Virus record (IMG/VR): IMGVR_UViG_3300021197_000800
Coordinates: 1-22,912 of that record
DNA from: a virus
DNA: 22,912 bases
Direction: 5' to 3' (one strand)
A model generated the notes under the pieces. The model was not told where the DNA came from and searched no databases. It saw only the letters and a program-made list of their open reading frames with translations. A program made the position numbers and the translations under genes. Below, piece after piece: positions 5,160-21,644 of this stretch (positions within the stretch are counted from its first letter, which is position 1; each line of letters starts with the position of its first letter).

Positions 5160-6632
5160 TTGAACCTAGATACCCAAACAGATGCCGACATCCAAAAACT
5201 ACGCTTAGAACTGCGTTTAAAGCAGCTTGAGAAGGTAGAAACTTGCCACAATGAATTTTTACCATTTGTAAGAGCTATGTGGCCCGAGTTCATCGCTGGT
5301 ACGCACCATCATTTGATCGCAGAGAAGCTAGAAAAGATCGCGGACGGGTCTTTAAAACGCTTGATCATCAACATGCCACCGCGACACACGAAGTCTGAGT
5401 TTGGTTCTTACTTGTTTCCTGCGTGGATGATTGGACGCAAGCCGTCAATGAAGATCATACAAGCGACACACACCACCGAACTTGCTGTGAACTTTGGCCG
5501 TAAGGTTAAAAACTTGGTTGAAACTGAGGAGTACAAGGAAGTTTTTGAAGATACGAAGCTATCTGCGGACAGTAAAGCCTCTGGTCGGTGGGACACGAAG
5601 GCTGGCGGCATGTATTACGCCGTGGGCGTTGGATCGAACCTCGCGGGCCGCGGCGGTGATTTAATCATTATTGATGACCCGCACTCGGAGCAGACGGCGA
5701 TGTCTGCCAGTGGGTTTGAGAATGCATGGGAGTGGTACACGGCGGGTCCCCGGCAGCGTCTCCAGCCGGGTGGCGCTATTGTTTTGATTCAGACGCGGTG
5801 GTCGGAAAAGGACATGACGGGCAATTTGATCCGTCAAATGACTAAAGACCCTTTTGCTGATCAGTGGGAGGTAGTTGAGTTACCGGCTATATTTGAGTCT
5901 GGTGAGCCTTGTTGGCCTGAGTTTTGGAAGAAGGAGGAGTTGGAGTCGGTTAAGGCATCTATCCCTGCTTATCAGTGGAACGCGCAGTATCAGCAGAACC
6001 CCACGTCTGAGACGTTGGCTATCTTGAAGCGTGAGTGGTGGAACGTGTGGGAGAAGGATCATATTCCTAATTTGCAGTATGTAATTCAGAGTTATGATAC
6101 GGCGTTTAGTAAGCGGGAGACGGCGGACTATAGTGCTATTACTACTTGGGGTGTATTTTATCCGGAGGAGATAGGTGGTGCGGCGCATTTAATATTGTTG
6201 GATGCGAAGAAGGGCCGGTGGGATTTTCCTGAGTTAAAAGAAATTGCTATGGAGCAGTACAAGTATTGGGAGCCTGAGACGGTTATTGTTGAGGCGAAGG
6301 CATCAGGGACCCCTTTGACGCAGGAATTGCGACAAGTTGGCATTCCTGTGGTAAATTTCACGCCAAGTCGTGGAAATGACAAGCTTTCTAGGGTCCACAG
6401 TATTTCACCTTTATTTGAAGCTGGTATGATATGGGCACCGGATGAGTCGTGGGCGCATGAAGTTATTGAAGAATGCGCAGCTTTTCCTAACGGGACCCAC
6501 GATGATTTGGTTGATAGTACTACTCAGGCTTTGATGCGCTATCGGCAGGGAAATTTTGTACAGTTGCCTACGGATGATTGGGAAGAAGGCGACGAATACG
6601 TGAATATTAACGCTGGAGCGTACTATGGCTGA
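5160..6632 (+). CDS. terL: Terminase large subunit (packaging ATPase/nuclease)
   Basis: This 490-residue protein has the full two-domain terminase layout of the Terminase_6 type. The ATPase has a Walker A-like PPRHTKS at 73-79, Walker B LIIIDDP at 168-174 and a coupling-type segment IQTRW at 210-214. The RNase H-fold nuclease has Asp313 (SYDTAF), Glu378 (VIVEAK) and the HDDLVD acids at 447-452. It cuts and pumps DNA into the prohead through the portal. No ATG gives the expected N-terminus; TTG 5160 has TAGGGA at 5149-5154, five bases upstream, and keeps the usual N-terminal helix. The last 8 bp overlap the next gene. Glutamate codons switch sharply inside the gene: residues 177-378 have 22 GAG to 2 GAA, while the remainder favours GAA. 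This hints at mosaic origin. Confidence 0.95.
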   Translation: MNLDTQTDADIQKLRLELRLKQLEKVETCHNEFLPFVRAMWPEFIAGTHHHLIAEKLEKIADGSLKRLIINMPPRHTKSEFGSYLFPAWMIGRKPSMKIIQATHTTELAVNFGRKVKNLVETEEYKEVFEDTKLSADSKASGRWDTKAGGMYYAVGVGSNLAGRGGDLIIIDDPHSEQTAMSASGFENAWEWYTAGPRQRLQPGGAIVLIQTRWSEKDMTGNLIRQMTKDPFADQWEVVELPAIFESGEPCWPEFWKKEELESVKASIPAYQWNAQYQQNPTSETLAILKREWWNVWEKDHIPNLQYVIQSYDTAFSKRETADYSAITTWGVFYPEEIGGAAHLILLDAKKGRWDFPELKEIAMEQYKYWEPETVIVEAKASGTPLTQELRQVGIPVVNFTPSRGNDKLSRVHSISPLFEAGMIWAPDESWAHEVIEECAAFPNGTHDDLVDSTTQALMRYRQGNFVQLPTDDWEEGDEYVNINAGAYYG

Positions 6633-9600
6633 ACGGGCAGATTTAACCCCGGCTGAGATATTGGCACGTCAACGAATGCTTGAAGAAGCGTTGGCGGGTC
6701 AGGATGCGGATGCCGAGCTTTTTGGCGCGGTAAACCAAGTGCCGCCGGAAAATTATGGCCCGAAGACCGTCCGAGGCATACCAGAAGCCGACGAAAACCT
6801 ACTTAAAACGCTGGTAAGCCCTCTTGTACCGCTTGAAACGGACGTAGTTAGGGAGCCAGAGTCCACCTATACTCAGATCCCAGAAGCTTTCCAAAACCCT
6901 GCGGACATGGGTAATCCAGAATTACTTCGCACCAGCTATACGCCGGGTAGGTATGCAAACCCACGGCTAGCAGCGCCGCCCATTGTCGATTCGATTAGTG
7001 GCGGCTTAAAGTTTGGCAACAAGTTATTGTTTGGGGATGCTGGCGAACAAGCCGAGGCCCGCGAAAAGGTAAGTCAAGGCATTGGTGCATTACCCGGTTT
7101 ACCTAAATCAATGGTTGAAAGCGTCATTGGTGGCGGGCGGAACGTTGCCCGTGGCAACATCACTACGCAAGATGCTGAAGGCAACATTACTCGCCCCGGT
7201 CAGTTTGCCGAAGGGCTTGCTATGTTTCCTGCGGCGAGGGCTTTTTCTTCTGTACCGGAAGGCACTTCGTTCGGCGTATTTGGTGGTCGCACGGGCGTAG
7301 AGATTGGCGCAGATGTCGCGGAATATGAGCGGATGCGTTTTGAAGAGCAGCAGCCACCTAATTTAGCTTCTGCCGAAACGGGCGTATTTTTAGGCATAGA
7401 CAATCAACCGCGCAAGTTTTTGGGCGATTTTAAAATTAGAGACAATTTTTTTGCAATAAGTAAAGAAATCAAAGATGGCTTGGCCGATAGAGACGGGAAG
7501 CCTTATAAAGTTCCTTTATCTGCTGTCATTTATTTTCCGGGTTTAGAAAAAAACTATCCAACTCTTGCGAATGCCTTGGTAGTGCTTAGTCCTAGATTGG
7601 GCGCAAGGCGGGACCCGAATGTCGCGGAATATGACGCGGCGGCTGAAAAAGTAGGCAAAAAACCTCGCTTTGGGGGAAACAATAATTTTTATGACCCAGA
7701 CACGAATACTTTTTATTTTGAGGCAGAGTCAGAAATGCCGCGAGGAGATGCTACGGAAGTCGAAAAAGTAAGCGAATATAAATATAAAGGACTAAAAGAA
7801 AATTTAGCAAAAACTATTCAAGAAACTATTCAGCTTCGAGAAGGCTTTGCTACACCAAGACCCACAGATGATTATGTTCTTTCATCAACTACACCGGCAA
7901 TAGTTGCCATGCGAGACAGGGGTCTAACCACAGAATCCGAAATAAAAGCCTATTTTGACGAGTTGCAAAAGCAACGAGACGCGCTGCAAGCGGAACAAAC
8001 ACAGAATATAGCTCCGGCAAGTCCGGATGCTAGCCGTCAAGAACGCCTTGTCCAGAGAGGAGTTGAAAACTCTTTGAGCACTGTTTCAAATTCGCTGGTT
8101 AATGCGTATTTGTATGAAAACGTACCCTCAACCATAGCTAATCGTCATTATGTGGGTAGAAAAGTTGCAGACGAGTTGCCGAAGGATGCACTTAAACTTT
8201 CATCGCAAGAGTTTATACGCTATGGGTCCTCCGGGCAGCTAGGCGCTGTAAGCGCAGCAAAGTTGACGAAGGCTGCAAATCAACTTAGATCAAAATTTGG
8301 CGATAAACCAAGCATTGTTGATAGAATTCGCGGAGCGCAGTCTTCGGAACCCGGCTCGTTTAACGTACCTGCGGACGCTGAATTTACTGCGGAAGACGTA
8401 TCCAACGCCGTTTCCCTGTTAGAAGGCATGGCAGATACCCTTAAAGCTCCAAACAAAACTTTTTGGAGAAATCAAAACAGCATTGCGAAAGAACAAGCAA
8501 CCGCAACGGTGTCTTTACAAGACGTACAGTCAGAAGAACGTCTATACCCCGGAGCGGCTCGTATGGAGCAAGATGCTGCGGCGGAGTTGGCTATTCGAGG
8601 TGGTCGTAATAGAGACTATCTTATGCGTAGTGAAAAAGCCGCGCTGGAGATGTTAGACCCGGTAAGAGCTACCGCTCAGTCCGAAAAAATGCGGCAAGAC
8701 GTAATGGACGAAGAACTTGGAAGTTCTCTTTTGTACGGCGATAGAGGTTTTTATGACGCTTTAGATAGGGGTGACACAAACTTACGGCAACGCACGGAAG
8801 AAGCGGCAAGGCAAGGAACCCCTGTTTACGATCCTGAAAAGCCGTTTGTTGCTAAAATTCCGGTGGCTATTACCAATGTTAAACGAGAAAGAGGCACTCC
8901 GGAGCAGTGGATGGCCGACATCCGAAAACAAAACCAAAAAGATCTTTTAGGCATTAAAGAAGAGTCTTTGAAGCTGCTAAACCTGCAAGAAGAGCTAAAA
9001 CTAGAAGAGCAGCGGCTACGACAACTATTCGACGAAGATCAAGCCGGTTTTGAAACATTACCCGGCAATAACGAGCCAGAAGGGTTGTTTGAATCCTCAA
9101 CTAGAAAGAAAGGCACGTTAACTAAAGAAGAGGTTTTAGCGGTATTTGAACGGCAAGATCGTCCGGTAGATATTGAAGTCTTGGATGGTTCTAAATCTTA
9201 CCGCACTTTTTTATTGCCCGGAAAAGGGCGAGACACCGCTCGAACGTTTGTTTTTAGATCTTTGCCCAAGGAAGGCGACACGGATTTTTTTATAGAACAG
9301 CATTTCGATAGAGAAAACCCCAAAGAGGGGAAGATAAACACTTTTGCGCATAACCGCGTTACATCTAGAGTAGATGTTGATGACAACAAAGTTTTTCTTG
9401 CGGAAGAGTTTCAATCAGAAGCTTTTAAACCACAGAAACGCGACAAAGATAAGCTTAAATCAGAGGGCGTAGCTCTTCCTCACCGAAGCGATTGGTTAAA
9501 TCTATCCGTAGAACGTATGTTGTTGGCCGCAGCCGAAGAGGGTTTTGACACGTTTGCAGTGCCACCGGGGTTTGTTCCACACAGTATGTATAACGCAGGG

Positions 9601-11169
9601 CCTACCAAGCAAGGATACATCGACGTATACGATAAAAAAATACCCGCGTTGCTAAAGAAAATGGCTAAAAAATACGGGATGGATTACGACGATGAGATTT
9701 CTTTGCCGTTAGAAAATGACCGTGGTAAACCGTTGATGATTGATCAACTAGACAGGCAGATTGGCGAAGAAGCTTATATAAACGAAGAGTTGTACAACAC
9801 CGCCAACAGAGAGCAAGCGCACATCTCGGTTCGCGGCTTGCGGATTACGCCCGAAGCTCGTAAGGCTATTCTAAAAGCAAAAGTAGGTCGTGCCCAAGGC
9901 GGCGCGGTACAAAGATTTAATCAAGGTGGTATGGTGTCCCCTATGAACAAACCTAGAGTTACGCAGGGTTTAACGAACCTGTTGAATAAATACAGCACGG
10001 GTCCTCTAGCGGGAGCCGGTAATGTTTCACGTGGAACACCTGTCCAGAGTTTTGCTCCCGGTGGTCCGGTAGCAAATTATAATCCTCGCTTAGATCCTTC
10101 TTTAGATTTCTCTGACCCGTTGAACCCTCCGGAAGGGTATGAGTATCTTGGGATTGGGGGAGAAAGCGGGCAGGTGCTTACGGGAGCAAATGATTTTATT
10201 TATGTTGGCGATCCAGTAGCAGATGCGCCGTTGGATTTGGTCACCACTACTCCGCCGGTCACCGCTAATACAAGTCCGGTATCAATTACGCCTGCGTATG
10301 AAGATGGCCCTGTTTCACAAACGGATAACTTTGAAGATAACCCTGTGACAAGTGTCCCCGTGGTGACTCCCGCATCTACGGCACCGGCAACTGCCGATCC
10401 GTTGACTTCTGATTTAGCGGTCAGCACTACGCCGGCGACCACTACGCCGGCGACCACTACACCGGGAACCACTACGCCGGCGACCACTACACCGGGAACC
10501 ACTACGCCGGTAGTCGCATCACAGCCTATTGTTAATCCGATTGACAATACACCCTTACCGCCTTCGGTTTACAACCCGCCCGCGCCTCCAGAGGAAGCTG
10601 TTTACACGCCTCCTGCGGCCACGGTGGTAGATACTCCTGCAACTTTGTTTACTCCGCCGGAAGTTTTTGATGTACCGGAAGCAAAAAAGTATCAGTACTT
10701 GCAAGATCTTCGGCCTGATTTTGACATCTCGGATGTGATTAAAACTCAAACGGGCGGTTACGCGCCTACTCAAGGTATGGTCATTAACCCTACGGAGTAT
10801 CAATATTCTCCAGATCAGGTGATGAGCGACAACGTGTATGTCCCGCAAATTTATAGACCTATGCCCCAGTTTACGTTAAGTGACATCGATGCCACCGAAG
10901 GAACAACTTCTGAAGATTCAACCGCCGAAACAGACACCGAAGATACTGCGAGTACTGCGGATACTACGCAAGGAACTACGTTTGCTTCGTTAGACTCTTT
11001 ATCGTCTAACCAACAAGCGTACAATCCGGAGCAAGATTATGCCGATAGATATGGGTATACTCTCGCAGAACTTCGAGAAATTAATGCTGAACGACTTCGT
11101 ATGGGCCTTCCCCGCTTGCAAGATTTGCATACGGACATTGGCGATATAAATTTTAGTGGCGGGATGTAA
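6625..11169 (+). CDS. Large polyvalent protein
   Basis: This 1,514-residue multidomain protein starts at ATG 6625 (GGAG six bases upstream) inside the end of terL. An N-terminal region of unknown fold leads to FYDPDTNTFYF (355-365) and AKTIQETIQLREGFAT (395-410). These align with the zincin-like polyvalent segment 'HEIQHAIQxxEGFA', but the HExxH positions read KTIQE. Residues 757-852 carry TPEQW, GIKEE and TKEEVL. These lead into 910-1090 with EEFQSE (927-932), WLNLSVERMLLAAAEEGFD (957-975), YDKKIPALL (1002-1010) and LRITPEARKAIL (1072-1083). This is a domain order typical of phage large polyvalent proteins. After QGG-containing linkers the C-terminus is Pro/Thr-rich with a TTTPA/TTTPG repeat (1267-1296). 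Such proteins are thought to be delivered with phage DNA; that role here is inferred from family and position. There is no signal peptide. Confidence 0.75.
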   Translation: MAERADLTPAEILARQRMLEEALAGQDADAELFGAVNQVPPENYGPKTVRGIPEADENLLKTLVSPLVPLETDVVREPESTYTQIPEAFQNPADMGNPELLRTSYTPGRYANPRLAAPPIVDSISGGLKFGNKLLFGDAGEQAEAREKVSQGIGALPGLPKSMVESVIGGGRNVARGNITTQDAEGNITRPGQFAEGLAMFPAARAFSSVPEGTSFGVFGGRTGVEIGADVAEYERMRFEEQQPPNLASAETGVFLGIDNQPRKFLGDFKIRDNFFAISKEIKDGLADRDGKPYKVPLSAVIYFPGLEKNYPTLANALVVLSPRLGARRDPNVAEYDAAAEKVGKKPRFGGNNNFYDPDTNTFYFEAESEMPRGDATEVEKVSEYKYKGLKENLAKTIQETIQLREGFATPRPTDDYVLSSTTPAIVAMRDRGLTTESEIKAYFDELQKQRDALQAEQTQNIAPASPDASRQERLVQRGVENSLSTVSNSLVNAYLYENVPSTIANRHYVGRKVADELPKDALKLSSQEFIRYGSSGQLGAVSAAKLTKAANQLRSKFGDKPSIVDRIRGAQSSEPGSFNVPADAEFTAEDVSNAVSLLEGMADTLKAPNKTFWRNQNSIAKEQATATVSLQDVQSEERLYPGAARMEQDAAAELAIRGGRNRDYLMRSEKAALEMLDPVRATAQSEKMRQDVMDEELGSSLLYGDRGFYDALDRGDTNLRQRTEEAARQGTPVYDPEKPFVAKIPVAITNVKRERGTPEQWMADIRKQNQKDLLGIKEESLKLLNLQEELKLEEQRLRQLFDEDQAGFETLPGNNEPEGLFESSTRKKGTLTKEEVLAVFERQDRPVDIEVLDGSKSYRTFLLPGKGRDTARTFVFRSLPKEGDTDFFIEQHFDRENPKEGKINTFAHNRVTSRVDVDDNKVFLAEEFQSEAFKPQKRDKDKLKSEGVALPHRSDWLNLSVERMLLAAAEEGFDTFAVPPGFVPHSMYNAGPTKQGYIDVYDKKIPALLKKMAKKYGMDYDDEISLPLENDRGKPLMIDQLDRQIGEEAYINEELYNTANREQAHISVRGLRITPEARKAILKAKVGRAQGGAVQRFNQGGMVSPMNKPRVTQGLTNLLNKYSTGPLAGAGNVSRGTPVQSFAPGGPVANYNPRLDPSLDFSDPLNPPEGYEYLGIGGESGQVLTGANDFIYVGDPVADAPLDLVTTTPPVTANTSPVSITPAYEDGPVSQTDNFEDNPVTSVPVVTPASTAPATADPLTSDLAVSTTPATTTPATTTPGTTTPATTTPGTTTPVVASQPIVNPIDNTPLPPSVYNPPAPPEEAVYTPPAATVVDTPATLFTPPEVFDVPEAKKYQYLQDLRPDFDISDVIKTQTGGYAPTQGMVINPTEYQYSPDQVMSDNVYVPQIYRPMPQFTLSDIDATEGTTSEDSTAETDTEDTASTADTTQGTTFASLDSLSSNQQAYNPEQDYADRYGYTLAELREINAERLRMGLPRLQDLHTDIGDINFSGGM
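10023..10038. promoter_or_regulatory. parS-like ParB-binding site
   Basis: TGTTTCACGTGGAACA differs from the chromosomal parS consensus TGTTTCACGTGAAACA at one position. It fits the degenerate palindrome with the invariant CACGTG core, because G at that position also occurs in known parS variants. It lies inside the polyvalent gene, encoding residues N-V-S-R-G-T-P in a low-conservation linker. With uniform base use the chance of a match this close anywhere in the window is about 3 in 10,000 (hand estimate). Use by host ParB is inferred. Confidence 0.6.
10423..10510 (+). repeat. 15-bp tandem repeat encoding TTTPA/TTTPG
   Basis: Nearly six units of accactacgccggcg / accactacaccggga follow one another, with the two variants alternating from the third unit, so a 30-bp higher period is visible. 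They encode residues 1267-1296 of the polyvalent protein, a flexible Thr/Pro linker. Confidence 0.9.
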
Positions 11170-11185
11170 ACAAGAGTAAATATTT

Positions 11186-13630
11186 ATGGCAAATGAAAAC
11201 AGACCTCCCGTATCGTTAATGGAACGAGAAGGCATGGAGCTTGGAGACGAAGAGCTTTTAGCCGTAGAAGTTGAAGCACTGCCCAGCGGTTTAGAAACCA
11301 ACAGTGCTTTAAGTATTGAAGGCATTGAGATCACCGAAGATGAAGACGGTGGTGTCACTTTCGATTTTGATCCGCTGCGTAACAAAGAACGTGAAGACGA
11401 TTTTTTTGACAACTTGGCCGAGTTTTTATCGGATTCCGAGCTTGCTGAAGTGTCGAACGACCTGATGGATCAGTACACCTCGAACAAGGCATCTCGCCAA
11501 GATTGGGAAGAGACGTATTCTAACGGCTTAGAGCTACTAGGCTTTAAGTACGAAGACCGCACCGTGCCGTTTAGAGGTGCTACGGGTGTCACACACCCCG
11601 TGTTGGCCGAAGCGGCGGTACAGTTTCAAGCACAAGCTTTTAACGAGCTACTGCCCCCTGACGGCCCTGTACGGACCACGGTTCTCGGGTCACAGACTCA
11701 CGCTAAAGTAGAGCAGGCTTCTCGCGTTAAAAACTTTATGAACTACTACATTACTAATGTAATGGAAGAGTACACCCCAGAATTTGACCAGATGTTGTTT
11801 AATCTGCCCTTGGCGGGCAGTACGTTTAAGAAAGTGTACTTTGATGACACGCTTGGCCGTCCAGTAAGCAAGTTTGTACCGGCGGAATACCTTGTTGTCC
11901 CGTATGAAACAACGGATTTGTTGACTTGCCCGTGTGTAACACACGTTGTTCGTACTTCTTTAAACGATTTGCGCAAGCAGCAGGTAAGCGGTTTCTATAG
12001 AGACGTTGCGGTTTTACCGTCTCAGCAAGGCACCACCAGTATTTCAGAAGAAACAGACTATATTGACGGCATGAGCGCCTCTAATGTGGACTACGACTGC
12101 ACACTTTTAGAGTTTCACGCGGACTTAGACCTAGCGGGCTATGAGCATAAAGACGAAGATGGCGAAGAAACAGGCATAAAAGTGCCGTATATCGTCACTA
12201 TTAGTGAAGAAAACAACAAAGTTTTAGCTATTCGCCGTAATTATCAGGAAGAAGACCCGCTAACTACTAAGATTCAGTACTTTGTACACTACAAATTTCT
12301 TCCGGGCTTTGGTTTCTACGGCTTAGGCTTGATCCACACTATTGGCGGCTTATCGCGCACCGCGACTGCTGCACTGCGGCAATTGATTGATGCGGGTACG
12401 TTATCTAACCTTCCTGCGGGCTTTAAAGCACGCGGCCTGCGGATCAGGGACGATGATACTCCGTTACAGCCGGGTGAATTTAGGGATGTAGACGCTCCGG
12501 GTGGTCAAATACGTGATAGCTTGATGCCGTTACCGTTCAAAGGGCCGGATCAGACGCTATACCAGCTATTAGGCTTTGTTGTAGACGCTGCACAGCGGTT
12601 TGCCACCATTACTGACATGAAAGTAGGTGATGGCAATCAAAACGCGGCTGTCGGCACTACTGTTGCGTTATTGGAGCAGGGTAGCCGTGTAATGAGCGCA
12701 ATACACAAGCGTTTGCATTATGCGATGAAGACTGAGTTTAAGATTTTAGCGCGGGTAATGGAGGAAAGCTTGCCTCCGGTTTATCCGTATGAAGTTCCGG
12801 GTGCAGAAGCCACCGTAAAAGCAACGGATTTTGATGACAAGGTAGATGTTTTACCTGTTTCAGACCCTAATATCTTTTCTCAAAGCCAGCGTATTGCTTT
12901 GGCTCAGACAGAGCTTCAAATGGCTATGCAGGCTCCGGACATACACAACATTCCGGAAGTATATCGCCGTGTTTATGATGCCTTGGGCGTTAAAAACACT
13001 GACATGATATTGATCTCAGACACGCCAAACGACATTTCCCCTAAAGATCCGGCGCAAGAAAACATAGATTCGCTTGAAAATGGGGCTTTACAGGCTTTTA
13101 AGGGTCAGAATCACATGGCGCACATGCAATCGCACTTGTTGTTTATAACGGGTGGATCTGCGTCTCAGATGCCGAATGTGCAGCTAGCCATGCAAAAGCA
13201 CCTGTTAAACCACATACAGTTGCAGGCAGAAGAGCAGGCGGACCAGCAATTTGCTCAACAAAACCCCAACGTAGCGTTGCAAGATCCTGCAACGAATATG
13301 CAGTATCAAGCTATGTTGGCGCAATTTGTAGCGCAAGGCACTCAGCAGCTTGTAGAGCTTGGAAAGCAGATACAGGGTGGTGGGCAAGAGCAGGCACCAG
13401 ATCCGTTGATTGAATTAAAACAACAAGAGTTGCAGCTTAAATCTCAACAAGAGCAAAATGACATGGCTATGGAGCAACAACAACTTCAACTAGACCGTGA
13501 AAAGCTTGCTCAAAGAGAAGCTCAGTTCCAGCAACGGCTACAAAGCCAAGAAAACATGACTGCCGCACGTATAGATGCGGGTATGCAGCGTGAACTTTTA
13601 AAACAACAATCTCAAAAAGGTGATTTATGA
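11186..13630 (+). CDS. Portal protein
   Basis: This 814-residue protein is a podovirus-type (P22-like class) portal, the dodecameric ring through which the terminase feeds DNA. Evidence is its position after terL, its length (P22 portal has 725 residues), the DWEETYSNGLELLG segment (about 106-119) and the VPFRGATGVTHPVLAEAAVQF region (127-147). There follow an aromatic/proline-rich core with LPGFGFYGLGLIH and the conserved RFATITDMKVGDGNQNAAVGTTVALLEQGS stretch, seen in this class. The N-terminal 70 residues are acidic. Residues about 674-814 are Gln-rich and helical, likely a long coiled-coil barrel or an internal tail. ATG 11186 has only a weak AAGAG. The gene ends in an ATGA overlap with the next gene. 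Confidence 0.9.
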   Translation: MANENRPPVSLMEREGMELGDEELLAVEVEALPSGLETNSALSIEGIEITEDEDGGVTFDFDPLRNKEREDDFFDNLAEFLSDSELAEVSNDLMDQYTSNKASRQDWEETYSNGLELLGFKYEDRTVPFRGATGVTHPVLAEAAVQFQAQAFNELLPPDGPVRTTVLGSQTHAKVEQASRVKNFMNYYITNVMEEYTPEFDQMLFNLPLAGSTFKKVYFDDTLGRPVSKFVPAEYLVVPYETTDLLTCPCVTHVVRTSLNDLRKQQVSGFYRDVAVLPSQQGTTSISEETDYIDGMSASNVDYDCTLLEFHADLDLAGYEHKDEDGEETGIKVPYIVTISEENNKVLAIRRNYQEEDPLTTKIQYFVHYKFLPGFGFYGLGLIHTIGGLSRTATAALRQLIDAGTLSNLPAGFKARGLRIRDDDTPLQPGEFRDVDAPGGQIRDSLMPLPFKGPDQTLYQLLGFVVDAAQRFATITDMKVGDGNQNAAVGTTVALLEQGSRVMSAIHKRLHYAMKTEFKILARVMEESLPPVYPYEVPGAEATVKATDFDDKVDVLPVSDPNIFSQSQRIALAQTELQMAMQAPDIHNIPEVYRRVYDALGVKNTDMILISDTPNDISPKDPAQENIDSLENGALQAFKGQNHMAHMQSHLLFITGGSASQMPNVQLAMQKHLLNHIQLQAEEQADQQFAQQNPNVALQDPATNMQYQAMLAQFVAQGTQQLVELGKQIQGGGQEQAPDPLIELKQQELQLKSQQEQNDMAMEQQQLQLDREKLAQREAQFQQRLQSQENMTAARIDAGMQRELLKQQSQKGDL

Positions 13631-13909: not shown

Positions 13910-14107
13910 ATGGACGGTATCGATATCGTGCAGTTTGTTCGTAAGACGCTGCTTGATCGCAAGGGCCAGATCTCTGAACTTATGTCAGAGGGTGGCGTTA
14001 AAGATATGGAACATTACAGGGAGTGCATGGGCGAAATCCGTAATTGTGATTACGTTCTTGTAGAGCTTTCTGAAATGCTAGACAAACAGGAAGATATGGA
14101 TGTCTGA
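13910..14107 (+). CDS. Small unknown helical protein
   Basis: This 65-residue acidic helical protein begins at ATG 13910 with AAGGA at 13897-13901. It contains a heptad-like run through VKDMEHYRECMGEIRNCDYVL, with Cys39 and Cys46, ending in an acidic tail. Small helical proteins at this site in phage head operons are usually uncharacterised. It overlaps the co-chaperonin gene by 8 bp and is probably translationally coupled to it. Confidence 0.6.
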   Translation: MDGIDIVQFVRKTLLDRKGQISELMSEGGVKDMEHYRECMGEIRNCDYVLVELSEMLDKQEDMDV

Positions 14108-14546
14108 AAGTAAAGAACCCTTGGATTTATCCAAGCTATACGTTCCCGAAGAGGAGCGCGTGTTAGATCCCACTTTGATTACCGCAAGTGCAATTGAAAG
14201 ACTTCCTCAACCAACAGGTTGGCGGATTTTGATTATGCCGTTTCGAGCACCGAAACGAAGTAAAGGCGGTATTTTGTTAAATACTAAGACTTTAGAAGAA
14301 GACGCTGTTCAAACAAATGTCGGTTACATTCTTAAACTTGGGCCAGATGCCTACGAAGATAAAGAAAAGTACCCCCGCGGGCCGTGGTGTGAAGAACGAA
14401 AATGGGTAATTTTTGCTCGTTACGCCGGTTCTAGATTTCGTTTGAACGGGGAAGATGCCGCTGTCTTTGGCAGCGAGGTTAGAATTCTTAATGATGATGA
14501 GATTTTAGCCACAATTCTTGATCCTAACGATATACACCATAGTTAA
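14100..14546 (+). CDS. GroES-like co-chaperonin
   Basis: This 148-residue protein carries a GroES (Cpn10) domain at about 36-141 after an N-terminal extension. PTGWRILIMPF (38-48) matches the first GroES strand. SKGGILL (54-60) is the mobile loop with the hydrophobic ILL tripeptide (IVL in GroES) that docks on GroEL. VGYILKLGP (74-82) matches 'GkVvaVGpG', KWVIFARYAG (101-110) matches 'gDrVlFskYaG', and VRILNDDEILATI (127-139) matches the C-terminal strand. Phage co-chaperonins such as T4 gp31 replace host GroES so that host GroEL can fold the capsid protein. Its place just before scaffold and capsid genes fits this. ATG 14100 has CAGGAAG at 14087-14093. No GroEL gene is in the window. Confidence 0.88.
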   Translation: MSESKEPLDLSKLYVPEEERVLDPTLITASAIERLPQPTGWRILIMPFRAPKRSKGGILLNTKTLEEDAVQTNVGYILKLGPDAYEDKEKYPRGPWCEERKWVIFARYAGSRFRLNGEDAAVFGSEVRILNDDEILATILDPNDIHHS

Positions 14547-14557
14547 GGGACATGCAG

Positions 14558-15484
14558 ATGAGTGAAAAGTTAAAGGCCCATGAGGCAGACGATGGACAGG
14601 TAGACCTTGAGTTTACGGAAGAAGCTCAAGATGTAATTTTAGAAGCAGAAGATTCGGCAAATTCTCAGGATTCTAGTGCAGAAACCGTAGTACAAGAGTC
14701 GGATAGCGAGGATGAACATGAGAAATACAGTAACTCAGTTCAAAAACGCATTAACCAGCTTACTAAAAGAGCTAAAGAAGCGGAAAGGGAGCGTGAAGAG
14801 GCGTTGCGCTATGCTCAAAACATTCAAGCTGAAAACACGGATGTTAAGCAAAGGCTTCAAACTTTAGACCGTAGCTACATAGATGAGTACGGGCACCGAG
14901 TTAGCTCGGAGCAGGCTAGAGCTAAAGACGAGTTAAAGTCTGCTATTGAAGTGGGCGATACAGATCGCCAGATGCAGGCTCAAGAAAGAATTACACAGCT
15001 AACTTTAGCCGCGGATAAACATGCGCAAGCTAAAGCTAGTAGAGAAGCTCAAGCGCAACAAGCGCAGCAGCAACAAGAATATGCGCAACAACAGCAATAC
15101 CAACCTGCTCCTCGACAAGCCGCACCCGATCAAAAAGCCGAAGAATGGGCTTCTAAAAACGATTGGTTTGGTGAAGATGACGCAATGACGTTTGCGGCGT
15201 TTGGTTTGCATAAGAAATTAGTTCAAGAAGAAGGATTTGACCCAGCTAGTAATGATTACTATGATGCGTTAGATTCTCGCATGAAAAATGCGTTTCCTCA
15301 CCGGTTTCCGGATGAAGAAGTAACAAGACAAAATCGTTCTGGACAAACTGTAGCGGGAGTATCTCGCTCTAAAGGAACAGGACGCGGTAAAAAGGTTCGT
15401 CTCTCCCCGAGCCAAGTTACCATTGCAAAAAGATTGGGAGTGCCACTCGAAGAGTACGCTAAGTACGTGAAGGAAGGACAATGA
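14558..15484 (+). CDS. Capsid scaffolding protein
   Basis: This 308-residue protein has the composition and layout of a phage scaffold. It has an acidic N-terminus (about 1-55), a long charged coiled-coil region (about 60-150), a Gln/Ala-rich stretch (about 155-195), an EEWASKNDWFGEDDAMT segment, and a basic helix-turn-helix tail RLSPSQVTIAKRLGVPLEEY (281-300) that would bind capsid protein. Scaffolds assemble the prohead interior and are then released. ATG 14558 is preferred over ATG 14552 because the ribosome binding site AAGGGA (14545-14550) is seven bases from the first and one from the second. No protease motif is seen. It ends in an ATGA overlap. Confidence 0.82.
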   Translation: MSEKLKAHEADDGQVDLEFTEEAQDVILEAEDSANSQDSSAETVVQESDSEDEHEKYSNSVQKRINQLTKRAKEAEREREEALRYAQNIQAENTDVKQRLQTLDRSYIDEYGHRVSSEQARAKDELKSAIEVGDTDRQMQAQERITQLTLAADKHAQAKASREAQAQQAQQQQEYAQQQQYQPAPRQAAPDQKAEEWASKNDWFGEDDAMTFAAFGLHKKLVQEEGFDPASNDYYDALDSRMKNAFPHRFPDEEVTRQNRSGQTVAGVSRSKGTGRGKKVRLSPSQVTIAKRLGVPLEEYAKYVKEGQ

Positions 15485-16651: not shown

Positions 16652-17557
16652 ATGCCTATTACACGCGCCCAACTGGCGAAAGAGCTTGAACCCGGCCTAA
16701 ACGCTTTGTTCGGCTTAGAGTATGATCGATACGACCAAGAGCATTCTGAAATCTTTGACGAAGAGTCTTCGGACAGAGCGTTTGAAGAAGAAGTGATGCT
16801 TTCTGGCTTTGGTACAGCCCCAGTTAAATCTGAAGGTGGTTCAATTTCATTTGACCAAGCGCAGGAGACTTATACTGCACGCTACTCACATGAAACTATT
16901 GCACTAGCCTTTTCGATCACTGAGGAAGCTATTGAAGATAACCTTTACGACAAGCTGGCAGCACGCTACACCCGTGCATTGGCACGATCTATGTCACAAA
17001 CCAAGCAAATCCGCGCAGCAAGCGTACTGAACAATGCGTTCAGCACTGCGTCGCCTATCGGTGACGGCTCGGCATTGTGTGCAGCAGATCACCCGTCAAT
17101 CTCAGGTGATCAGTCAAACGTATTGGCCGTAGCCGCCGATCTCAACGAAACATCTCTTGAGCAGATGCTAATTGATATCGCAGGCTTCACCGATGAGCGT
17201 GGCTTAAAGATTGCAGTTCGTGGAATGAAGTTAGTAATTCCTAAAGAGCTTCAATTTATTGCAGAAAGAGTTATGAACTCTACACTGCGATCAAGTACGG
17301 CTGACAACGATGTCAACGCTATGAAGTCTATGGGAATGCTTCCAGAAGGAGCGGTTGTAAACCACTTCCTTACGGACACAGACGCATACTTCATAAAGAC
17401 TGACGCTCCAAGTGGCTTTAAATTGTTTCAAAGAACTCCCATCAAAACTGCGATGGAAGGTGACTTTGATACAGGTAACATGCGCTTCAAGGCACGTGAA
17501 CGTTATTCGTTCGGCGTATCTGATTGGCGTTCCGTTATCGGCACACCCGGAGCCTAG
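16652..17557 (+). CDS. Major capsid protein (HK97 fold, Mu gpT-like)
   Basis: This 301-residue protein is the expected length for an HK97-fold shell protein and resembles the Mu-like major head subunit gpT group. Its features are an N-terminal helix (TRAQLAKELEPGL), YSHETIALAFSITEEAIEDNLYDKL as the long spine-helix region, and ALCAADHPS followed by a variable loop. LKIAVRGMKLVIPKELQF is a strand-helix of the A domain, and GDFDTGNMRFKARERYSFGVSDWRSV is the C-terminal P-domain strand region. AGGAGA lies six bases before ATG 16652. It is followed 22 bp later by a terminator, consistent with a strongly expressed gene. No protease is seen in the window, and the N-terminus shows no long delta domain. 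Confidence 0.88.
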   Translation: MPITRAQLAKELEPGLNALFGLEYDRYDQEHSEIFDEESSDRAFEEEVMLSGFGTAPVKSEGGSISFDQAQETYTARYSHETIALAFSITEEAIEDNLYDKLAARYTRALARSMSQTKQIRAASVLNNAFSTASPIGDGSALCAADHPSISGDQSNVLAVAADLNETSLEQMLIDIAGFTDERGLKIAVRGMKLVIPKELQFIAERVMNSTLRSSTADNDVNAMKSMGMLPEGAVVNHFLTDTDAYFIKTDAPSGFKLFQRTPIKTAMEGDFDTGNMRFKARERYSFGVSDWRSVIGTPGA

Positions 17558-19007: not shown

Positions 19008-19292
19008 ATGGCGACAACTAAAGACGTTACACGGACCCCTTCTGGCCGTATAAAGTATCGAGGTGAAACTTTTTCGGGTTTTAACAAGCCGAAAAGAACG
19101 CCTAATAAACCTAAGAAAAGTGCGGTTTTGGCTAAAAAAGGTAGTGACATCAAGATAGTACGTTTTGGGGACCCCAAGATGTCTATTAAGAAAGATCAAC
19201 CAGCTAGACGTTCTAACTTTAGGGCACGCCATAATTGCGATACTGCCAAAGATAAATTTAGCGCCCGGTATTGGTCTTGTAAAGCATGGTAA
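19008..19292 (+). CDS. Very basic small protein 1 of 4
   Basis: This 94-residue protein has 26 Lys/Arg against 7 Asp/Glu (hand count). The N-terminal half is KPKRTPNKPKKS-like and probably disordered. The C-terminal part, SIKKDQPARRSNFRARHNCDTAKDKFSARYWSCKAW, contains a His-Asn-Cys and a late Cys with aromatic residues, so a small fold or metal site is possible. This C-terminal sequence pattern recurs in uncultured aquatic phages in my experience. TAGGTGA at 18997-19003 precedes ATG 19008, and the stop overlaps the next gene's start as TAATG. Confidence 0.68.
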   Translation: MATTKDVTRTPSGRIKYRGETFSGFNKPKRTPNKPKKSAVLAKKGSDIKIVRFGDPKMSIKKDQPARRSNFRARHNCDTAKDKFSARYWSCKAW

Positions 19293-19501
19293 TGACACGC
19301 GGGGACATGCCCAAAGGGTTGACGTATTACCGTAAAGGTGGCGCTGCGTCTAAAAAAAGCAAGGGCAGTAAGATTTGCCCTGCGGGTAAAGCGTGGGCAA
19401 AAAGAACCTTCGACACATACCCTTCGGCATATGCCAACATGGCCGCTTCTAAGTATTGTAAAGACCCTAACTATGCCAAAGGCAGTAAGAAGAAAAGCTA
19501 A
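19292..19501 (+). CDS. Very basic small protein 2 of 4
   Basis: The 69-residue product (from ATG 19292; 71 from ATG 19286) has 17 Lys/Arg against 3 acids. Its core, ICPAGKAWAKRTFDTYPSAYANMAASKYCKDP, has two cysteines and regularly spaced aromatics and looks folded, flanked by lysine/glycine/serine-rich arms. ATG 19292 is preferred because it overlaps the upstream stop as TAATG; ATG 19307 is a further option. It overlaps the next start in the same way. The family function is unknown; nucleic-acid binding is inferred from charge only. Confidence 0.65.
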   Translation: MTRGDMPKGLTYYRKGGAASKKSKGSKICPAGKAWAKRTFDTYPSAYANMAASKYCKDPNYAKGSKKKS

Positions 19502-19827
19502 TGGGTGAGTTAAAGAAATGGCGTGACCAAAACTGGGTTCGTATCGACTCCGAAGGCAATATTGTTGGAAAATGCGGTACTTCTCCAGACAAAAAGAATC
19601 CAGACCGTTGCTTGCCAGAAGCCAAAGCACGATCTTTGACTAAAGCAGAACGAGCAGCAACAGCGCGTAAAAAGAAAAAAGCCGGAAGTAAAGGCAAGAC
19701 AGTGGTTTCCAATACTAAGAAAGCTACTGTAAAAGGAATGCGGGATGGGGGCGAAGTTCGTCAACAAATTGCAAAAGGATGCGGTGCGGTATTAGAAGGC
19801 CGTCGAAAAGTAACCAAATATTTGTGA
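19501..19827 (+). CDS. Very basic small protein 3 of 4
   Basis: This 108-residue protein begins at a TAATG overlap. Its N-terminal domain, LKKWRDQNWVRIDSEGNIVGKCGTSPDKKNPDRCLP, has two cysteines and tryptophans in a conserved-looking pattern. Next comes a helix, ARSLTKAERAATARKKKK, and then a long basic tail; the total is 29 Lys/Arg against 11 acids. Proteins with this 'W-x-RI...GxCGT...NPDRCLP' pattern are frequent in environmental phage contigs. Their function is unknown to me. DNA condensation or capsid-interior binding would fit, but is inference. Confidence 0.66.
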   Translation: MGELKKWRDQNWVRIDSEGNIVGKCGTSPDKKNPDRCLPEAKARSLTKAERAATARKKKKAGSKGKTVVSNTKKATVKGMRDGGEVRQQIAKGCGAVLEGRRKVTKYL

Positions 19828-19834
19828 GGTCGAT

Positions 19835-20092
19835 ATGTCGGTAGTTAATTTAGGCAACGGTGCCCCTAAGAAAAAAGGCACAACAAAAATTAAATCCAAA
19901 GGTATGTCTATGGGCGGTGCCATGAAATCTAAAGGCATGGCTGCGGGTGGTAAGATGAAGCCCAAGGGTATGGCGGCTGGTGGTAAGGTAGCCAAGAAGT
20001 CTATGGGCGGTGCCATGAAGTCTAAAGGCATGGCCGCAGGCGGTAAGATGAAATCCAAGGGTTATCGAAGTGGTGGCAAAGTAAGCAAATAA
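19835..20092 (+). CDS. Lysine/glycine repeat protein, 4 of 4
   Basis: The 85-residue product has 21 Lys and 1 Arg and no acidic residue. It is almost wholly built from MGGAMKSKGMAAGGKM-type units, so it is expected to be disordered and strongly cationic, resembling a protamine or histone-tail-like DNA binder. GAGGT at 19826-19830 gives a strong ribosome binding site. The coding DNA contains a 93-bp (31-codon) duplication. The same 'GGxxxK/GGMV' flavour appears in linkers of the polyvalent protein. Function is inferred from charge only. Confidence 0.65.
   Translation: MSVVNLGNGAPKKKGTTKIKSKGMSMGGAMKSKGMAAGGKMKPKGMAAGGKVAKKSMGGAMKSKGMAAGGKMKSKGYRSGGKVSK
19907..20092 (+). repeat. 93-bp imperfect tandem duplication
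   Basis: The unit beginning TCTATGGGCGGTGCCATGAA at 19907 recurs at 20000, in phase (31 codons), with mostly third-position differences. Shorter KGMAAGGK units repeat inside each copy. Confidence 0.8.
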
Positions 20093-20095
20093 AAC

Positions 20096-20779
20096 ATGTC
20101 TTACTTAACGTCGAATATCCCTCATTTTAAGTGCTGGGTCAGAAAAGAATTTACGCATAACCATGAGCAGTTTCATGGAGAGTTTCTTCATGCAATGGTG
20201 GTTGCTGTAACTACAATGCCTTGTAGGTGTTTAAGTTTTCAGATTATTTTCACCGGAATTGAAGCAGAAGGTGAAGAAGAAGATACCGTACATGGCGGTG
20301 CAATGTGGGCTAGGATGCCGATAACGGCTTTGGTTGCGGACATTCCGCTAGAAGAGTGGCCGGAGCCGATGGCGGTACACGATGCCCAGCCGTGGGACTG
20401 TTCCTCTAATCATCACTCGGTGTATGTTTTAGATAGAGCAACGCCGTCTCCGTGGATGGCTAAAATAAACGGGGAAATGTTCCCTGCAAAGTATTTGTTT
20501 ACTGTGGATTATACGGAAAGCGAAATAGCAGATGATCCGGCGCAGCATAAGCAATCGCATGTTTTACAGCTATTGGATGCAGGCCAATGGACGGGCAATA
20601 TCGTAGCGTTGCCAAACAACCGAGTACGGGTCACACACCCTGCTTGGTTTGAAACAGGCTCGGGTGCCCCCGATTTTAAACCTTCGGCGCACATACATTA
20701 CTCTAAATCTGATTTAGACTATAGTTTGGACGTTAACCGAATATTTGATAATTTATACAATGACAATATCGAACAGTAA
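20096..20779 (+). CDS. Conserved unknown phage protein
   Basis: This 227-residue protein has a His/Phe-rich N-terminus (FTHNHEQFHGEFLHAM, about 18-33), then TMPCRCLSFQIIFTG and EGEEEDTVHGGAMWARMPITALVAD. Then follow WPEPMAVHDAQPWDCSSNHHSVYVL, a beta-rich middle and SAHIHYSKSDLDY near the end. Numerous histidines and acids (H20, H22, H26, H31) could bind a metal. I associate this sequence type with environmental phages, where it is annotated hypothetical. The start ATG 20096 lies 3 bp after the previous stop with no clear Shine-Dalgarno, and the end overlaps the next gene by 20 bp. Confidence 0.65.
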   Translation: MSYLTSNIPHFKCWVRKEFTHNHEQFHGEFLHAMVVAVTTMPCRCLSFQIIFTGIEAEGEEEDTVHGGAMWARMPITALVADIPLEEWPEPMAVHDAQPWDCSSNHHSVYVLDRATPSPWMAKINGEMFPAKYLFTVDYTESEIADDPAQHKQSHVLQLLDAGQWTGNIVALPNNRVRVTHPAWFETGSGAPDFKPSAHIHYSKSDLDYSLDVNRIFDNLYNDNIEQ

Positions 20780-21644
20780 GAATTTTGAAATAGATGTCGC
20801 TGAATATATTGAAGAAGCGTTTGAGCGGTGTGGTCAAGAAGTACGCACGGGCTATGATCTAAGGACCGCAAAAAGGTCTTTGAACTTATTGTTTGCTGAT
20901 TGGGCCAACAGAGGTTTAAATCAATGGACCATAGAGCAAACTACCATCACGCTTGCCGCAGGAATCAGTGAGTATCCCTCGGGTTCGTTAACTCTTTCCG
21001 TAGCGGCTACCGGCAGTTTCACGGTTGGCGAAACGATTACGGGCGGTACAAGCGGCGCTATTGCTTCTATAACTAGCTCTCCTACAACCACGTCTTTTGC
21101 CACTACTATTCCAGTAGGCTCGTTTACGCTTAACGAAACGATTACGGGCGGTACAAGCGGCGCTACAACCACTGTTTCGGCGGTTCAAGATTTATCGGAC
21201 ACGCAATCTACAATAGATATGCTTTCTGCGGTGGTTACTCGAACCGGAACGGACTTTGAAATCACACGCCTTAGTCGGTCTGAGTTTTTAAATATTCCAA
21301 CAAAAACTCAAACGGGTCGCCCTAATCAATTCTTTTTAGATAGGCAAATAAGTCCTGTTCTAAAAATATGGCCGGTTCCGGACAACAATACGGACGTTAT
21401 TAAATTTAACCGTCTAACTCGAATAGACGATGCGGATGCTTTTACAAACACGGTAGATATACCTTTTAGGTTTTACCCTTGCTTGGCCGCGGGCCTTGCG
21501 TACTATCTTTCTATGAAGCGTAGTCCTCAACTAATGGCACCACTTAAAGCTATTTATGAAGAAGAAATGCTTCGTGCAATGGAAGAAGATCGCGACAGGG
21601 CATCCTTTAAGATAAGTCCTCCTTCATACCAGTACGGTCTTTAA
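20760..21644 (+). CDS. Head-to-tail adaptor (P22 gp4-like) with beta insert
   Basis: ATG 20760 gives a 294-residue protein; a TTG at 20745 is less likely. Helical ends frame a beta core. Residues 10-60 (EYIEEAFERCG, RTAKRSLNLLFADWANRGLNQWT) and the run SRSEFLNIPTKTQTGRPNQFFLDRQISPVLKIWPVPD (about 174-210) match the pattern of phage gp4-like adaptors, which bind under the portal and receive the tail. The C-terminal helix EEEMLRAMEEDRDR also fits. The usual 'xYxLp...vDil' region is split: GISEYPSGS (68-76) is separated from STIDMLSAVV by about 70 residues. That stretch includes two copies of GSFT-xx-ETITGGTSGA at 85-100 and 120-135. Confidence 0.72.
   Translation: MTISNSKNFEIDVAEYIEEAFERCGQEVRTGYDLRTAKRSLNLLFADWANRGLNQWTIEQTTITLAAGISEYPSGSLTLSVAATGSFTVGETITGGTSGAIASITSSPTTTSFATTIPVGSFTLNETITGGTSGATTTVSAVQDLSDTQSTIDMLSAVVTRTGTDFEITRLSRSEFLNIPTKTQTGRPNQFFLDRQISPVLKIWPVPDNNTDVIKFNRLTRIDDADAFTNTVDIPFRFYPCLAAGLAYYLSMKRSPQLMAPLKAIYEEEMLRAMEEDRDRASFKISPPSYQYGL
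21029..21165 (+). repeat. 32-bp direct repeat, 105-bp period
   Basis: 21029-21060 and 21134-21165 are identical over 32 bases and in the same frame, encoding the ETITGGTSGA units of the adaptor insert. Confidence 0.9.

Follow-up and report, generated by a model that had tools for sequence, protein, structure and literature searches.

A run of four small basic proteins in a viral DNA fragment and its possible place in a modular protein set linked to head assembly

Phages possess internal head and DNA-condensing proteins that are small, basic, produced late and linked to the head genes. The four products studied here, called A to D, are like these proteins in each of these respects, although the comparison concerns how such proteins work and implies no sequence relation. 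Closer in sequence is Tlr6F, which the accessible part of one paper equates with the Pfam family PF19058, also known as DUF5754 (PMC12220804). As far as the accessible text of a 2015 study goes, Tlr6F is conserved in nearly all polinton-like viruses (PLVs), several virophages, numerous giant viruses and some phages, and its function was not detectable (PMC4642659). Two further families touch on our locus, DUF5872 (PF19197) and DUF6321 (PF19846); a literature search for DUF6321 found no paper. A described protein with an A domain is Gp125 of ICP1, which carries a capsid protease. In the available part of a review, Gp125 degrades the scaffold by prediction, and the virion proteome of ICP1 is described as incomplete by 2021 (PMC9040626). 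The accessible part of the eLife paper on ICP1 (PMC10945586) does not name Gp125.

The first-pass annotation of our locus knew of no described system with this composition. This is partly wrong, since A (Tlr6F) and DUF5872 are already named families, although both are without known function. In the literature searched, to the extent that its texts were accessible, we found no description of an A-B-C cassette, of the exchange of modules in the slot of A, or of a fusion of A to a protease.

Layout and conservation of the four genes

The window, i.e., the whole stretch of DNA that was analysed, is a viral fragment of 22,912 bases. Gene A (19008-19292; 94 aa) encodes a Tlr6F/DUF5754-related domain and matches phrog_7595 (8.7e-22). 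Gene B (19292-19501; 69 aa, or 71 aa from an alternative in-frame ATG at 19286) encodes a PSAYAN module and matches phrog_27331 (2.6e-25), gene C (19501-19827; 108 aa) matches phrog_23735 (1.1e-21), and gene D (19835-20092) encodes 85 aa; all four lie on the plus strand. Recounting net charge as K+R minus D+E gave +19, +14, +18 and +22, identical to the earlier hand counts, and D indeed contains no D or E. The four ORFs are also consecutive and translationally coupled or nearly so, as the first-pass annotation had stated: A shares a single base with B, and B with C (TAATG), while 7 nt separate C from D. The gene that follows D after 3 nt in the late operon (20096-20779) matches phrog_3704, which is labelled ferredoxin.

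Among the 28 genes taken for the window, A to D have the four highest charge densities (0.167-0.259), and the probability that the top four would be adjacent by chance is 0.0012, a post hoc value for these 28 genes. However, mechanical ORFs of similar size reach charge densities of up to 0.26 (31 ORFs, real genes included), and hence charge by itself is no evidence. When the window was compared with its relatives, each of the four ORFs had a dN of 0.08-0.34, and dS was saturated or nearly so. Low dN at saturated dS means that A to D are real, constrained proteins. All four ORFs are under purifying selection, which, together with conservation of the cassette, rules out a chance artefact.

A to D are placed between the major-head region and the head-tail adaptor. 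The large terminase, TerL (5160-6632; phrog_38, 3.1e-108), the portal protein (11186-13630; phrog_1216, 7.5e-54), a scaffold candidate (14552-15484; weak match to the head scaffolding family phrog_8865, 0.0043) and the major head protein, MCP (16652-17557; phrog_371, 7.9e-22), precede them, and an SU10-type adaptor or head-tail connector (20745-21644; PF24175, 4.1e-7) follows, all on the plus strand. The interval between TerL and portal holds an acidic ORF of 1514 aa (6625-11169; net charge -62) with no PHROG match. Directly upstream of the scaffold candidate lies a gene for a GroES-like co-chaperonin (14100-14546), as is also the case in HTVC027P and CRP-902.

The order A-B-C-D recurs in marine phage contigs. 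We counted co-occurrence in IMG/VR scans, using the best 80 matches per scan, cut to distinct query proteins and to loci with at least 1.5 kb on either side. Duplicates were left out, as were loci too near a contig end (16 for close A, 29 for B, 14 for C, 18 for D, 28 for distant A) and two D loci without a plus-strand match; in these counts D was recognised by composition only. Within 3 kb, and among these best 80 matches, all 41 C loci contained B (with A in 28 and D in 38), and all 45 B loci contained C (with A in 18 and D in 33). Close relatives of A (n = 44) had B in 36 cases, C in 36 and D in 32, leaving 8 without B, C or D, whereas distant relatives of A (n = 52) had B in 12, C in 20 and D in 14, and 30 stood by themselves. 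D loci (n = 41) contained A in 24, B in 28 and C in 31 cases. Gene order was mostly ABCD or BCD. Within this sample, B and C thus form an obligate pair, from which A and D can be separated.

The earlier suggestion that the four act as a set is thus supported for B and C, which are always together in these loci, and usually extends to A and D; moreover, A, B and C are fused elsewhere. Conversely, independent occurrence of the genes applies in part to A and D, and not to B and C. Scanning bacterial and archaeal genomes with the C alignment yielded 11 loci, all on MAG contigs from scattered taxa, and hence C looks essentially viral.

Module families and exchange in the first slot

Module A is characterised by the motif YRGExFxGxNKPKRTP ... 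RRxxFRARHxCDTAKDKxxARYWSCKAW. The window A sequence does not match the Pfam model PF19058, but 10 of 24 A-family records match it at E ≤ 0.01, 2 of these 24 exceed its cut-off, and 3 of 13 A members reach it at E ≤ 1. The profile matches place A in the Tlr6F/DUF5754 family, which spans phages, polinton-like viruses and giant viruses, even though window A itself falls short of the model that its relatives reach. In a fold search, 21 predicted proteins of viruses matched the AF2 model of window A (pLDDT 94.5) at E ≤ 0.001, ICP1 ORF125 among them. Weaker matches came from Tunisvirus and Chloriridovirus anopheles1 (predicted proteins; probability 0.98 and 0.97; TM 0.55-0.59; E 0.1-0.23). Fold searches against solved structures with the models of A and of a fused protein gave only weak matches (Z ≤ 2.9), which imply no new fold, and no DNA-binding fold was recognised in the fold searches of these models. 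Searching PDB sequences with the A, B and C profiles returned nothing useful.

CRP-902 gp67 (L007:5917-6174), annotated as 'HVA1 family protein', is an A-family protein. We rejected this label, which is used in CRP-901 and CRP-902, as a name for A, because 13 A members gave no such Pfam match at E ≤ 1. We also rejected a zinc or disulfide core as an essential feature, because the A cysteines are missing in the KBS-S-2A and ICP1 versions and the B cysteines are missing in the fused proteins.

Profile coverage indicates that B and C correspond to the N- and C-terminal halves of DUF5872. On PF19197, B-type genes cover positions 1-52, and the C-type genes extend over about 42-112. In CRP-2, the B gene matches positions 1-52 above the cut-off (5.6e-12) and the next frame matches 42-88; in C72C1 the coverage is 1-39, then 50-104. 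Likewise, C of P-SCSP2 covers 55-112 and the B part of the S-BM3 protein 1-48. Neither window B nor window C reaches the PF19197 model, so that the link to DUF5872 runs via their families. Compared to DUF5872, which is a single model, the window carries the two halves as separate coupled genes.

C has a W-x(4)-WVRI...CGTS...RCLP module, a GG-linker and the conserved tail ARGCGAVMxxRRKxT. This tail (window 19732-19827, and in relatives) follows a GG-rich linker whose length varies, and is missing in some members. The idea that its GCGxV motif is common to other small basic proteins was rejected, with 0 found. Similarly, a PSAY motif upstream of and fused before WFKEKW, which we take to be the giant-virus layout, was found in none of at least 120 C-motif ORFs (0/120); the PSAYAN module lies downstream instead.

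D begins with MSVVNLGNGAPKKK and continues with KSKGMxxGG repeats, and is thus a repetitive, acid-free GGK protein. It matched no family, and window D gave no match to the SAP domain PF02037. A D-type homologue (L100:4595-4822) has a SAP-like C-terminal segment (PF02037, E 0.062, 13.4 bits versus a cut-off of 23.9), which could be a weak hint of DNA binding.

The slot of A can be taken by DUF6321. In the cyanomyophages S-B43 and S-BM3 we found proteins of the layout C-B-X-DUF6321 (the C and B parts assigned partly by eye), encoded between terS and terL in S-B43 and beside terS in S-BM3. The T4-GC_119 protein is labelled 'structural protein' in S-B43 and 'hypothetical' in S-BM3, where a different gene of the T4-GC_119 stretch is labelled 'virion structural'. 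The accessible part of Sullivan 2010 (PMC3037559) reports the virion proteome of S-SM1 and does not name T4-GC119. In P-SCSP2 and HTVC027P, B, C and DUF6321 are part of an unbroken run of five small basic genes; in P-SCSP2 the three lie between scaffold and MCP. These runs (P-SCSP2 19-23, L405:5001-5979; HTVC027P gp48-52, L006:6723-7840) also include unmatched basic proteins.

Among 18 records picked via A, B or C hits, and hence not a random sample, A was present in 13, DUF6321 in 5 and both in 0. The same pattern held for 306 distinct C proteins from the fetched loci, which were accompanied by A in 192 cases, by DUF6321 in 70, by neither in 44 and by both in 0. DUF6321 is strongly basic, and in 66 of the 70 distinct cases it was located upstream of C on the same strand. 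Alignment of A with DUF6321 by hhalign gave a probability of 47% over 17 columns, covering the RRxSFxAR core only. Homology between the two is thus unproven, but, whether homologous or not, A and DUF6321 look interchangeable in the first slot.

Fusions and the possible role of the modules

Our main interpretation, to which we give just under an even chance, sees in A to D one form of a modular and widespread group of small, basic viral proteins that serves at the stage of head assembly and packaging, and that probably binds DNA. The sequences show that the first slot of the set is filled by A or, in other phages, by DUF6321, the second and third by B and C, and the fourth by D. They also show that the modules are used as coupled genes, as a single polypeptide next to TerL in T4-like phages or, for A, as a fusion to the capsid protease. 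Presumably made late, the proteins would join the procapsid, or work on it, while the head is assembled and DNA is packaged, and their positive charge would attach them to the packaged genome. As folded modules, A, B and C may dock to DNA and head components, whereas D may act as a flexible polycation. The family is common to viruses with HK97-type capsids and terminases and to polinton-like and giant viruses with unrelated capsids and motors, which makes the genome a likelier common ligand than any one capsid lattice.

The polypeptide form was found by scanning for the C-type motif only, which selected at least 120 ORFs. By regular expression, 78 of these had the layout C-B-X-A; the others were C only (21), C-X (2), CBX (2), cut by a contig end (15) or unrelated (2). 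In 493 loci, HMMs recognised 82 ORFs of the type C-B-A and 8 of the type C-B. The fusion loci are closely related and are therefore not independent events. One fused protein of 333 aa (L397) matches phrog_7595, phrog_27331 and phrog_23735 in separate stretches, the same PHROGs as window A, B and C. The fused proteins are basic too, with a median net charge of +22 (n = 89). TerL was found in 13 of 23 long contigs hand-chosen from the fusion loci, and in 13/13 of these, from T4-like phages, the motif-bearing gene adjoins TerL on the same strand. The gap from the TerL stop to the start of the fused gene was 20-35 bp in 12 of the 13, and three small ORFs intervened in the other. Of the 23 contigs, 6 yielded a T4-type Gp23.

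This arrangement might suggest that the modules are accessories of the packaging motor, which recruit or regulate TerL at the terminase or portal or handle the DNA end, and which need not be packaged. The position of the fused gene directly after TerL, the S-B43 gene between terS and terL, and the CRP-2 cassette, which precedes terS/terL by a few genes, are all in line with this explanation. However, we consider it unlikely, because the modules are found with capsid genes rather than the terminase in the window, P-SCSP2 and ICP1, and because A is fused to a capsid protease.

The latter fusion occurs in both orders. In ICP1 Gp125, Peptidase_S78_2 (37-160) is followed by A (184-261), whereas A precedes the protease in Vibrio phage qdvp001 (A 77-154, protease 203-318) and Aeromonas phage 4L372D (A 75-150, protease 176-287). 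The gene lies between portal and scaffold in ICP1; in qdvp001 and 4L372D it takes an ICP1-like position, ahead of the genes for decoration and major head proteins. Window A, in contrast, consists of the A domain only (94 aa) and lacks the catalytic Peptidase_S78_2. The strong matches to phrog_1530 combine A with Peptidase_S78_2 (L414:3818-4825, L415:3824-4747, L004:5482-6318). We therefore rejected the label 'DNA methyltransferase' of phrog_1530, which is probably a mislabel.

A second alternative explanation might be docking and counter-charge, where A (or DUF6321) binds an acidic scaffold or the inner MCP surface and positions proteases or cargo in the procapsid, while the other modules neutralise acidic head proteins. 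The occurrence of A on either side of the protease fits this explanation, as do the acidic neighbours in the window (portal -57, scaffold candidate -16, MCP -16). Yet, it seems quite improbable, since A is located beside TerL rather than the scaffold in T4-like phages, and, as far as the published surveys were accessible, is also present in PLVs, virophages and giant viruses with different capsids.

Least probable, in our estimation, are non-virion late proteins that act on host or phage nucleic acid (in nucleoid displacement, as RNA chaperones or in counter-defence): small basic proteins of no assigned function are common in phages, and A lies near nucleotide-metabolism genes in some of them (adjoining a cytidyltransferase in HTVC008M, and by ribonucleotide reductase, away from the head genes, in Aegir), but most sampled genomes show tight linkage to the head and packaging module, and the protease fusion also argues against it.

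Returning to a packaging-stage, DNA-binding set, several points count against it, namely the 'hypothetical' label of the T4-GC_119 protein in S-BM3, the location of A outside the head genes in some phages, the large share of distant A loci that stand alone, and the negative outcome of the fold searches for a DNA-binding fold. In SIO1, A is located between gp22 and PhoH. The first-pass annotation proposed that the four may coat or condense packaged DNA, line the capsid or balance an acidic scaffold. This idea is partly supported, in that a head and packaging context is borne out by position (after the MCP region in the window, next to TerL elsewhere, and between scaffold and MCP in P-SCSP2) and by the capsid-protease fusion. 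Three of the four belong to a stock of modules that other phages exchange, or fuse into one protein next to the packaging motor or to the capsid protease, and this suggests a common role when viral DNA is loaded or compacted.

A broader proposal, which we regard as doubtful, is that tailed phages and eukaryotic polinton-like and giant viruses share a modular basic 'genome-handling' kit (Tlr6F or DUF6321, plus DUF5872) that would coat or compact DNA during packaging, whatever the capsid fold or the type of motor. Phages would then reshuffle this kit as separate genes, as one polyprotein linked to the terminase, or as a domain by which the capsid protease is brought into the procapsid. The gene set connects Tlr6F with DUF5872, DUF6321, the capsid protease and the terminase. 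It thereby turns three families of 'unknown function' into one testable hypothesis, for which CRP-2, HTVC027P, P-SCSP2 and ICP1 are cultured carriers.
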